Positions 9,675-18,389 of a stretch of 64,000 nt of DNA are shown here, in pieces. The notes beneath the pieces were generated by a model. It was not told the DNA's origin. It saw nothing but the letters and a program-made list of their open reading frames with translations, and did no database searches. Where the stretch lies: the NCBI RefSeq assembly GCF_007997135.1, contig NZ_VORU01000008.1, forward strand, positions 62,001 through 126,000, in the 5' to 3' direction. This DNA is from Aequorivita lipolytica. GTDB taxonomy: Bacteria > Bacteroidota > Bacteroidia > Flavobacteriales > Flavobacteriaceae. Within the stretch, counting starts at the first letter, position 1. Each line of letters begins with the position of its first letter. The position numbers and the translations under genes are program-made.

Positions 9675-11099
9675 TTATTTTACCGCCTGCAGCCCGATGG
9701 ATTGTCCTTTTTTCAACATAAATTTTCTCGCAGCCTCGTATTCATTGGGAATTTCACCTTCAAGGATTGCTTCTTTTATGGCGTCTTTTATGATTCCGAT
9801 TTCGCGGGATGGTTTCAAGCTGAAAGTTTCCATAATTTCCTCACCCGTAACTGGCGGTTGAAAATTGCGAACCTGGTCGCGTTCTTCCACTTCCACAATT
9901 TTATTCCGTACCAATTGGAAATTGCTGTGGTATTTTTTAAACTTATTGGGATTCTTGGTAGTAATATCGGCTTCACAAAGCGTCATTAAATCTTCTACGT
10001 ATTCGCCTGCGTCAAAAATCAATCTTCGCACGGCGCTGTCAGTAACTTCGCTTGCCAAAACAATAGGGCGGGAGCTCATCAAAACCATTTTCTGGACGAA
10101 TTTCATTTTATCGTTCAGCGGCATCTTCAAGCGTTTGAAGAGTTTGTAAACCATTTTTGAGCCTACAAATTCGTGTGCGTGAAACGTCCAACCCAGTTTT
10201 TTATCGAACTTTTTTGTGGGTGCTTTCCCAATATCGTGAAGCAATGCGGCCCAGCGCAGCCAAAGATCTTCTGTTGCTTTTGAAATATTATCAACCACCT
10301 CCAGCGTATGCCAAAAATTATCTTTGTGGGTTTGACCTTCCTTTTCGTCTATGCCTTGCAGCGCAACCAATTCTGGTAAAATATACGGTAGCAATCCTGT
10401 TTTGTGAAGAAGTGAAAATCCTTTTGAGGGCACTTCTGAAAGTAAAATTTTATTCAGCTCATCCACAACCCGTTCTTTGGAAATGATTTTTATGCGTTCA
10501 ACATTTCGGGTAATTGCTTCCAACGAATCTTTTTCAATCACAAAATCTAATTGGGTTGCAAACCGAATGGCGCGGAGCATTCGTAAAGGATCGTCGCTAT
10601 AGGTTATATCTGGGTTTAAAGGCGTTCTGATTATTTTTTTATGAAGATCTTCAATTCCATTAAATGGATCTAGCAATTCTCCAAAATTTTCATCGCTCAA
10701 ACTAAGTGCTAAAGCATTTATAGTAAAATCCCTTCGGTTTTGGTCGTCTTCCAAAGTTCCGTTTTCAACAGCGGGATTTCTGCTTTCTTCAGAATAGGAT
10801 TCTTTTCGGGCGCCTACAAATTCAAGCTCAATGCCGCCGCTTTTTAGCATTGCGGTTCCGTAGGTTTTAAAGATTGTAACCTTGGGTTTTCCGGGTAGTA
10901 GTTTGGAAACTTCTTCAGCCAAATCAATTCCGCTACCCACCGCAACTATATCAATGTCTTTGGCTTCGCCGCGCTTTAATAAGAAATCGCGCACGTAACC
11001 GCCAATAACGTAGCTTTCCAAGTTTAGATTTTTGGAAGCTTTGGAAATGGTTCTAAATACTGGATTTTTTAAAGCGGATATATAGGTTTCTTTAACCAC
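9675..11099 (-). CDS. cca: CCA-adding tRNA nucleotidyltransferase with HD domain
   Basis: Adds or repairs the 3' CCA of tRNA. The 474-residue protein has a nucleotidyltransferase head with YVIGGYVRDFLL (near residue 30) and the catalytic carboxylates in DIDIV, the RRDFTINAL motif, the DPLRMLRAIRFA motif of class II enzymes, and a C-terminal HD phosphohydrolase domain (HTLEVVDNI, LLHDIGK). The head-plus-HD architecture is usual in Bacteroidota. The start is GTG at 11099. Lies leftward of the GxxExxY element. Confidence 0.92.
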   Translation of the reverse strand: MVKETYISALKNPVFRTISKASKNLNLESYVIGGYVRDFLLKRGEAKDIDIVAVGSGIDLAEEVSKLLPGKPKVTIFKTYGTAMLKSGGIELEFVGARKESYSEESRNPAVENGTLEDDQNRRDFTINALALSLSDENFGELLDPFNGIEDLHKKIIRTPLNPDITYSDDPLRMLRAIRFATQLDFVIEKDSLEAITRNVERIKIISKERVVDELNKILLSEVPSKGFSLLHKTGLLPYILPELVALQGIDEKEGQTHKDNFWHTLEVVDNISKATEDLWLRWAALLHDIGKAPTKKFDKKLGWTFHAHEFVGSKMVYKLFKRLKMPLNDKMKFVQKMVLMSSRPIVLASEVTDSAVRRLIFDAGEYVEDLMTLCEADITTKNPNKFKKYHSNFQLVRNKIVEVEERDQVRNFQPPVTGEEIMETFSLKPSREIGIIKDAIKEAILEGEIPNEYEAARKFMLKKGQSIGLQAVK

Positions 11100-11142: not shown

Positions 11143-11632
11143 ACCACGAATACACGAATATTGTTTTATTTTGTATTTTTTTGGAATATTTTCTAAACTT
11201 TAAAATATATCAATTTTTATAATACTACTCTTTTATATTCTAGACCTTCACCTTTAAAATTTGCCAAAATGGCCAATTTATTTTTTGAGACTTTTAAATA
11301 ATTAATACACTGCCCTAAGTGCAGATCTGTAAGTATTTCAACAGTTTTTATTTCCAAAATAATCTTATCATAAACTACAAAATCAGCATAGAATTTATGT
11401 TTAAGAATAATATCTTTGTAGGGAACAGAGAATTCCTTTTCTCTTTCGAAGGAAATATTTCTTTGAATAAATTCATATTTCAAGGCATCTTTATAAACTA
11501 TTTCAGACAAACCACTGCCCAAGCAGTTGAACACCTCATAAAGGCAGCCAACTACGTCATAACTTTCCTGTCTATAAATTATATCAGTCATATTGCACGA
11601 AGAAAATATAAAAACATTCGTGTATTCGTGGT
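11143..11632. mobile_element. Putative 490-bp element: GxxExxY gene between 17-bp terminal inverted repeats
   Basis: ACCACGAATACACGAAT (11143-11159) and its exact reverse complement (11616-11632) enclose a single gene of the GxxExxY family. The outer ends sit 44 bp after the start codon of cca and 8 bp before the stop codon of tsaC, so the unit fills the spacer between two housekeeping genes. No target-site duplication is evident. Gene-free pairs of the same arms occur at 49-139, 989-1160 and 18340-18389. I infer a small mobile or formerly mobile unit. Confidence 0.5.
11217..11591 (-). CDS. GxxExxY family protein (PD-(D/E)XK nuclease-like)
   Basis: A 124-residue protein of the GxxExxY family, which is placed in the PD-(D/E)XK nuclease superfamily. 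The name-giving motif is seen as GLSEIVY (residues 27-33). A RecB-like active site is visible: D70 in YADFVVYDK, E80-I-K82 in ILEIKTVE, and a QxxxY motif (Q94, Y98). I chose ATG at 11591, which matches the usual MTDIIYRQE-like start; longer in-frame starts run into the right inverted repeat. No function has been shown for the family as far as I know. All active-site positions are intact, so the gene looks functional. Confidence 0.85.
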   Translation of the reverse strand: MTDIIYRQESYDVVGCLYEVFNCLGSGLSEIVYKDALKYEFIQRNISFEREKEFSVPYKDIILKHKFYADFVVYDKIILEIKTVEILTDLHLGQCINYLKVSKNKLAILANFKGEGLEYKRVVL

Positions 11633-11640
11633 GAACTCTT

Positions 11641-12201
11641 TTATTGACGAATGACTTTAACGCTTCCATCATTCTTCAACTTAATAATAGCCGATGGTTT
11701 TCCAGACTTTTTTTGGTGATGCAAATTTACAACATAGTCCACGCCTTCCAAAATTAAAGGGTCTATTTCGGCATAACTTTGTGGGGTTTTTTCTCCGGAA
11801 ATATTTGCGGAAGTTGAAACCAACGGTCTGCGGAATTTCTGTATTAGTTTTTTACAGAACTCATCCTTTGTTACCCGAATGGCCAACGAGTTGTCTTCAG
11901 CAATAATATTTTCCGCTACCCGTATTGGGTCGTCATAAATAATGGATGTAGGCTTTTTTGCATACTTCAAAATATCGTAAGCTACTTCCGGTACGTTTTC
12001 CACATACTCGTTCAGCATTCTAAAATCGTGAACCAAACATATCAACGATTTTTCATCGCTACGTTGCTTCAGTTTAAAAACTTTATCTACGGCATCAGGA
12101 TTGGTGGCATCGCAGCCTATTCCCCAAACAGTGTCCGTAGGGTAGAGGATGAGGCCTCCTTTTTTGAGAATATTTAGACAGTTTTCAACTTCAATTTTCA
12201 T
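11641..12201 (-). CDS. tsaC: L-threonylcarbamoyladenylate synthase (TsaC/Sua5 family)
   Basis: Makes threonylcarbamoyl-AMP for the t6A modification of tRNAs reading ANN codons. The 186-residue protein has the YrdC fold marks: GGLILYPTDTVWGIGCDA near residue 15, FKLKQRSDEKSL, the LAIRVTKD segment and STSANISG near residue 133. It is the short TsaC form, without the C-terminal Sua5 domain. The start is ATG at 12201. Its stop codon lies 8 bp from the inverted-repeat element carrying the GxxExxY gene. Confidence 0.92.
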   Translation of the reverse strand: MKIEVENCLNILKKGGLILYPTDTVWGIGCDATNPDAVDKVFKLKQRSDEKSLICLVHDFRMLNEYVENVPEVAYDILKYAKKPTSIIYDDPIRVAENIIAEDNSLAIRVTKDEFCKKLIQKFRRPLVSTSANISGEKTPQSYAEIDPLILEGVDYVVNLHHQKKSGKPSAIIKLKNDGSVKVIRQ

Positions 12202-18339: not shown

Positions 18340-18389
18340 ACCACGAATACACGAATATCATTATACATAATTATTCGTGTATCCGTGGT
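18340..18389. repeat. 50-bp perfect-type hairpin of the ACCACGAATACACGAATA repeat
   Basis: ACCACGAATACACGAATA (18340-18357) pairs with TATTCGTGTATCCGTGGT (18372-18389) with one mismatch and a 14-nt loop. It has no cargo. It is the most compact form of the element whose arms flank the GxxExxY gene at 11143-11632. Confidence 0.7.

Follow-up and report, generated by a model that had tools for sequence, protein, structure and literature searches.

Inverted heptamer arrays around a GxxExxY nuclease gene of Aequorivita lipolytica and their gene-free hairpins: a candidate REP/RAYT-like repeat-and-enzyme system

The window analysed here, a stretch of 64,000 nt of the Aequorivita lipolytica genome, contains at positions 11143–11632 a single small gene enclosed by inverted repeats. 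The cca-side arm, ACCACGAATACACGAAT (11143–11159, plus strand), consists of two CACGAAT units directed toward the gene, and the tsaC-side arm (11616–11632, minus strand) is its exact 17-bp reverse complement, as originally described; an imperfect repeat reaches about 34 bp. The gene (11217–11591, minus strand, 375 bp) encodes a GxxExxY (PDDEXK_3) nuclease of 124 aa with D70, E80-x-K82 and a QxxxY motif at residues 94–98. It is codirectional with both neighbours, an upstream tsaC-like gene (11641–12201, minus strand) and a downstream cca-like gene (9675–11099, minus strand), which serve as markers of a fixed site; both names are presumptive, being taken from the original prediction rather than from a family search. 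The arms lie 24 and 57 bp from the coding region, with the tsaC-side arm ending 24 bp upstream of the ATG. The longest open reading frame (11217–11672) runs across this arm, and the family match starts at its residue 36; the start codon is likely the ATG at 11591, giving the 124-aa product.

The family assignment made in the original prediction was borne out by profile searches, in which the protein scored well above the curated cut-offs of TIGR04256 (E 8.1e-36, 122.9 bits, cut-off 35) and PF13366 (E 3.9e-32, 111.5 bits, cut-off 22). D70, E80, K82, and Q94 are invariant in all 81 aligned sequences (the window protein and 80 others); since these others were fetched by peptide patterns, the main one of which includes E-x-K, the invariance of E80 and K82 arises partly by construction. 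All five active-site residues (D, E, K, Q, and Y) are invariant in 14 proteins retrieved with a profile. The best PDB match of the predicted structure (pLDDT 95.7) was 4ic1 (E 1.2e-4, TM 0.60 by query and 0.39 by target, rmsd 13.7), which we take to be SSO0001, a Cas4 nuclease. The predicted fold is a Cas4-like PD-(D/E)XK fold, and the likeness to Cas4/RecB-type nucleases lies in this fold, while the size differs (124 versus 202 aa). Profile and structure matches were to PDDEXK families only, with no known transposase (DDE, HUH, or serine/tyrosine recombinase) among them. A PDB sequence search found no meaningful relative, PADLOC did not match the gene as a defence gene, and PHROGs gave weak matches only (E 0.014 or worse). 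No known RNA family reached its gathering score across six loci, a weak FsrA match inside the window element having an E-value of 0.73.

Copies of the arm are scattered over the window and the genome. Allowing three mismatches, ACCACGAATACACGAAT matches eight times in the window, against 0.13 expected, and none of 100 shuffles reached eight; allowing two mismatches, it matches 69 times in the whole genome (3.31 Mb, 47 contigs) and a reversed-pattern control not once, so the copies did not arise by chance. Three gene-free pairs had been reported in the window from the outset. Those at 989–1160 and 18340–18389, the latter a compact hairpin of the form arm-N16-arm, were found as described; that at 49–139 is real, with a one-base deletion in its right arm, and a pattern search shows its first arm only. 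A single plus-strand arm (951–967) adjoins the pair at 989–1160. Left of the window (L284, G000:C45:61300-62100, G000 being this genome), CACGAAT arms in tandem, separated by a repeated body of about 180 bp, extend into the pair at 49–139. The same genome holds a second GxxExxY gene, also between inverted repeats, of a different sequence, ACCACAGAGGCACAGAGGACACAGAG.

To see the generality of the frame, GxxExxY matches in 59 genomes, 80 named database loci, and two viral contigs were sampled, with the duplicate loci L121 and L122 removed ahead of the counts; the database loci are the best 80 of 502 confirmed ones, so that the breadth is a lower bound and the sampling leans toward the part of the tree around the window protein. 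The sample is rich in GxxExxY genes, with at least one match in 35 of the 59 genomes (own included) and in 25 of 27 congeners, and up to eight profile matches per genome, some of them fragments of broken genes. Flanks were long enough in 135 of the 149 full-length gene copies: an inverted repeat scoring at least 24 flanked 118 of these, compared with 3 of 135 windows placed 500 bp farther out, and at a score of at least 28 the figures were 99 and 0. In mismatched-flank controls, a score of at least 30 was reached by 57 of 91 gene copies of relatives versus 37 of 450 cross-pairs, and a score of at least 32 by 54 of 82 database loci versus 36 of 807. Arms scoring at least 30 occur in Bacteroidota, Planctomycetota, Acidobacteriota, Nitrospirota, Neomarinimicrobiota, Lentisphaeria, and Hydrogenedentota, as well as in a Caldithrix and a Limnochordia MAG, and a locus in a Methanophagales archaeon MAG has a weaker arm score of 26 (all MAG assignments as given). 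The inverted-repeat frame around GxxExxY genes is a general pattern.

Two contigs classed as viral (L203 and L204) carry GxxExxY genes with flanking inverted repeats scoring 42 and 31, and arms of the CACGAATT type are also present at some database loci, e.g., L146, L151, and L172.

Within each arm, a 7-nt unit plus a few bases of spacer is directly repeated, and the second arm is inverted relative to the first. In the 129 of 149 copies scoring at least 24, the density of the unit C[AG]CN[AG]AN per kb was 43.5 on the gene-pointing strand of the arms, 9.3 on the opposite strand, and 6.5 elsewhere in the flanks. In 104 of the 149 copies, the best repeat has its units pointing toward the gene, in 14 they point the opposite way, and in 31 it contains no regular unit. 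Arm sequence follows the protein: arm 5-mer similarity correlated with protein identity (Mantel r 0.33, pairs below 60% identity, 129 elements), a value not reached in 1000 permutations, and the ending of the unit (AG, AT, or AA; 121 of 149 rows labelled, 28 unlabelled) requires 8 changes along the protein tree, where shuffled labels required 43.1 on average and none of 200 shuffles was as low. This count is descriptive, since the tree is built on few columns and has many open forks, and near-copies ease clustering. In the window's genus, 27 AG and 2 AT endings fall on side A of the tree, and 15 AT and no AG on side B. Nine genomes of the genus hold both sides, and eight of them carry both arm types; since both types follow the tree side within single genomes, the match is not a genome effect. 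Candidate specificity residues were set aside, being confounded with clade. Taken as comparisons of sequence, these data support the view that gene and arms belong together, and the co-variation supports an action of the GxxExxY protein on the arms, although it could also arise without recognition, from gene and arms being inherited together at fixed loci.

Across the 59 genomes, the window's arm type accompanies 15 genes, 14 in the window's genus (own included) and one in a second genus; every one lies between tsaC-like and cca-like genes and has a repeat of this type as its best flanking one. The link between gene and arms drawn in the original prediction thus survives, as every gene at this position has these arms and other arm sequences flank GxxExxY genes elsewhere, in several phyla. 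Among 21 tsaC neighbourhoods examined, one was interrupted by a contig end; in the 20 readable genomes (own and 19 congeners), the gene is present in 11, in three of them broken, and there is none in nine. Two of the gene-less sites retain traces of the arms: that of G004 has a CACAAAG palindrome among CACGAAT remnants, and that of G009 has arm remnants. The dN/dS ratio was 0.02–0.11 in 10 of 15 sampled pairs, the others having no usable ratio (four) or a ratio of zero (one); in five of the ten, dS was saturated (above 1), so these five ratios are rough. The sampled pairs thus show strong purifying selection.

What varies in place is the hairpins, not the window's gene copy. Over 12 kb of G018, eight further congeneric genomes, own included, were compared with it. 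At site 1, there are hairpins in G018, G022, and G012 and a diverged one in G000, and the site is empty in five genomes; at site 2, the hairpin of G018 and G022 is cleanly absent from G003, G005, G024, G012, G000, and G011, G020 being not comparable. Only an ambiguous T-run was seen as a possible target duplication at a hairpin site. The spacer at site 3 holds a CACAGAG doublet in G018 and G022, a CGCAGAG doublet in G005 and G012, a TTGAGTA palindrome in G003, G024, G000, and G011, and an S23 gene element of about 400 bp in G020 (TIGR02436, E 1.9e-25). Empty sites and gene-free copies, looked for among relatives following the original prediction, were both found.

The number of CCACGAATNCACGAAT sites per genome ranges from 0 to 51 in the window's genus and is 23 in G034, which belongs to another genus, and 0 or 1 elsewhere among the 59 genomes. 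Genomes with the gene of this arm type, intact or broken, have a median of 20.5 sites versus 4 in those without it (14 versus 14 genomes of the genus, Mann–Whitney p 0.003, related species not being independent). Many of these sites are compact hairpins, and six single CACGAAT hairpins have loops of 8–14 nt. The spacer base between units is the same on both arms in 12 of the 14 listed inward pairs less than 60 bp apart, counted by hand (binomial p 0.0013 at an assumed rate of 0.43); therefore, hairpins tend to stay self-complementary. They also persist without the gene, since the congener G001 has 37 CACGAAT sites, along with 26 CACARAG sites, and no GxxExxY match. Sites of another sequence, CCACARAGNCACARAG, are dispersed in 23 of the 59 genomes.

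A stationary, selected gene combined with varying repeats points to the REPIN/RAYT pattern rather than to that of insertion sequences (IS) and MITEs. In REP/RAYT systems, the repeat type is tied to the enzyme type and the gene remains at one place for a long time. According to one report, the RAYT enzyme gene is framed by the repeat, and REPs are dispersed as singlets and inverted doublets (PMC3733652). The GxxExxY system resembles this in the framing of the enzyme gene and in the dispersal of the repeats as singlets and inverted doublets, the window's arm having 69 genomic matches, with hairpins among them (intergenic status checked for part); in addition, the gene of this arm type is fixed between cca and tsaC while its hairpins vary, other arm types having moved. 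The differences are the enzyme, which is PD-(D/E)XK and not HUH/Y1, the arms, which are direct heptamer arrays and not a tagged stem-loop, and the several gene copies of the family per genome. The heptamer-framed nuclease and its scattered arrays look like an undescribed repeat-and-enzyme system, REP/RAYT-like in behaviour. The explanation we prefer, with about an even chance of being correct, is that the window's copy serves as the stationary enzyme gene in a system of repeats and nuclease that acts like REPIN/RAYT with an unrelated PD-(D/E)XK enzyme.

In such a system, the 124-aa Cas4-like nuclease would recognise the heptamer units (here CACGAAT) of each arm, its substrate being hairpins of two inverted arms with the gene or nothing between them. 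It could cut at or near the arms while these are single-stranded or extruded, and host repair would then help the short hairpins freed in this way to re-enter the genome at A/T-rich gene borders. By this cut-and-reinsertion, hairpins lacking the gene would spread, while the gene-bearing copy would mostly stay, kept by selection, and occasionally relocate with its arms. Binding, cutting, excision, and joining, as well as the share of host work, are steps that we infer. We know of no PD-(D/E)XK enzyme that alone joins DNA strands; therefore, integration would have to be lent by another factor. One observation goes against the model, which does not explain it: among the gene-free close pairs of CACARAG type listed, 19 of 22 are outward and 3 inward (hand count), the reverse of the gene-framing order.

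Other arm types have relocated as a unit of gene and arms. A 513-bp insert in G018 (L041, 1414–1926) has the structure doublet-gene-doublet, and the same spacer is found without it in 13 of 19 genomes fetched; the spacer has another sequence in G021 and a gene-free doublet in G025, and four pieces were unreadable with both anchors, two of which (G024 and G023) carry the element by other comparisons. The search for target duplications gave no clear one, the join of this clean insertion having at most about three extra A's, in an A-run. All 35 pairs of genes in unrelated places with protein identity of at least 80% (relatives' loci; L065 and L066, with two genes each, left out) share exactly one stretch of at least 250 bp, which measures 406–531 bp and comprises the gene and its arms. 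Genes with CACAGAG arms occupy at least four unrelated neighbourhoods, and an internally deleted gene copy adjoins an intact one in G005. A pair of Fibrobacter loci (L163 and L169, GCCACACGGATT arms, 97% over 405 bp) was dropped as evidence of movement, since the alignment continues collinearly, with gaps, into neighbouring stretches, and the two may be the same place. At L037 (950–2050), an intact gene and a copy of it with an internal deletion are surrounded by arm doublets of alternating minus and plus orientation.

These relocations, together with the up to eight profile matches per genome (some of them pieces of broken genes), favour the view of the original prediction that gene and arms form an autonomous micro-transposon, with the gene-free hairpins as its deletion derivatives. 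We consider this rather unlikely, since all 15 genes of the window's arm type sit at one locus, many genes have long been retained at few loci, the sampled pairs are under purifying selection, and the 8–14-nt loops of the six single hairpins are unlike random deletions. Other arm types have moved with their genes; for the window's copy, confined to the cca-tsaC site in the 59 genomes while the hairpins vary, the claim of an autonomous element with non-autonomous derivatives is not supported as stated, and this copy does not resemble an autonomous transposon that is still active. With IS and MITEs, the system shares terminal inverted repeats, gene-free short relatives, and discrete insertions; it differs in having no known transposase, no clear target duplication, and a gene that is stationary in this clade. 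A free-standing homing endonuclease would also be a small nuclease gene at a site absent from relatives, but the 13 empty L041 alleles contain no arm units, although recognition might proceed via another sequence.

The stationary nuclease gene preferred here could also be a bystander, as cargo or a later resident, of arms and hairpins spread by another agent, such as a RAYT/Y1 transposase, a reverse transcriptase, or replication slippage. The many sites of the gene-less G001 would agree with this, as would the frame of the same kind often found around S23 genes and the one spacer (site 3) that holds CACAGAG, CGCAGAG, or TTGAGTA palindromes or an S23 element, depending on the species. However, the arms follow the GxxExxY protein within single genomes, and the sole Y1_Tnp match of the own genome is framed by an unrelated palindrome, GTCCCGTTAGGGAC, for which reason a RAYT was rejected as the mobiliser there; we regard an external agent as unlikely. 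The Y1_Tnp gene between GTCCCGTTAGGGAC palindromes (L062, G000:C27:121245) constitutes a separate RAYT-like system in this genome.

It is very unlikely that the arms are regulatory, acting as operator and terminator or as an RNA-processing stem like that of an RNase III-excised intervening sequence, and that the nuclease has another task, e.g., in defence or repair. The short distances of 24 and 57 bp between arms and coding region, the purifying selection in the sampled pairs, and the Cas4-like fold would be compatible with such a role, and the terminal stem closes in the predicted RNA of the element (z -2.5; 2 of 100 shuffles equally good), but dozens of gene-free copies lie far from the gene and PADLOC found no match. 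A type III toxin-antitoxin, in which repeat RNA is paired with an endoribonuclease, was rejected because the repeats lie at both ends of the gene and far from it.

In the searched literature, mostly without subscription journals and preprints and represented by partial texts, the GxxExxY family is named and no description of its function was seen; no mention of PDDEXK_3 was found there. The only match of a repeat-string search was, in the excerpt available, part of a Bacteroides fragilis PCR primer, and a related-concept search, covering excerpts and few subscription journals or preprints, returned nothing describing a heptamer-framed nuclease system. If the arms are what the protein reads, the family would gain a function to test and a natural series of pairs of nuclease and target (AG, AT, and AA units), and the stationary nuclease with its hairpins would be a second, enzymatically unrelated solution to the job of REPIN/RAYT.

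The S23 element at site 3 extends the comparison to another protein. S23 genes (TIGR02436) are present in 44 of the 59 genomes, with 21 matches in the own genome, and 19 of 29 usable loci (30 taken) have flanking inverted repeats scoring at least 32, versus 19 of 556 cross-pairs. To our knowledge, S23 proteins are not known as nucleases; as their genes are often framed in the same way, an agent distinct from the nuclease may produce the frame. A tblastn search of the window with 26 S23 proteins gave nothing better than E 0.013. Only one pair fitted the filter for element-limited homology, and the S23 element thus stays a candidate for mobility.

As far as we know, the 23S rRNA intervening sequences have been unexplained since 1990. 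The one of Coxiella is reported to encode S23p; its terminal stem measures 28 bp, and heptamers (GACAGAT) are repeated in tandem ahead of the open reading frame (PMC4990558). Like it, the window element consists of terminal inverted repeats forming a stem around a single small open reading frame; it differs in lying outside 23S rRNA, between tsaC-like and cca-like genes, and in encoding GxxExxY, whereas intervening sequences lie in rRNA, encode the four-helix bundle S23, and are excised by RNase III. The S23 frames and the Coxiella sequence thus suggest a similar architecture around two unrelated proteins. One could tentatively hypothesise, with well under even confidence, that a single undescribed class of elements is driven by two unrelated kinds of gene, GxxExxY and S23; in this class, one small gene or none would lie between inverted heptamer arrays, whose sequence the protein would read. 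Members that landed in rRNA would then make up the 23S rRNA intervening sequences, and specificity and the start of movement in the GxxExxY branch would both be due to a minimal Cas4-like nuclease alone. The architecture shared with S23 makes the nature and movement of the rRNA intervening sequences directly testable.

By eye, many S23 frames (L235–L264; genome-wide in G000) resemble arrays of 7–8-nt units, such as GTTGATG, GTCAGCT, and TTAGACG. In the CGCAGAG doublets of the site 3 spacer (L265, 10183–10250; also L285–L292), nearly all units read CGCAGAG.
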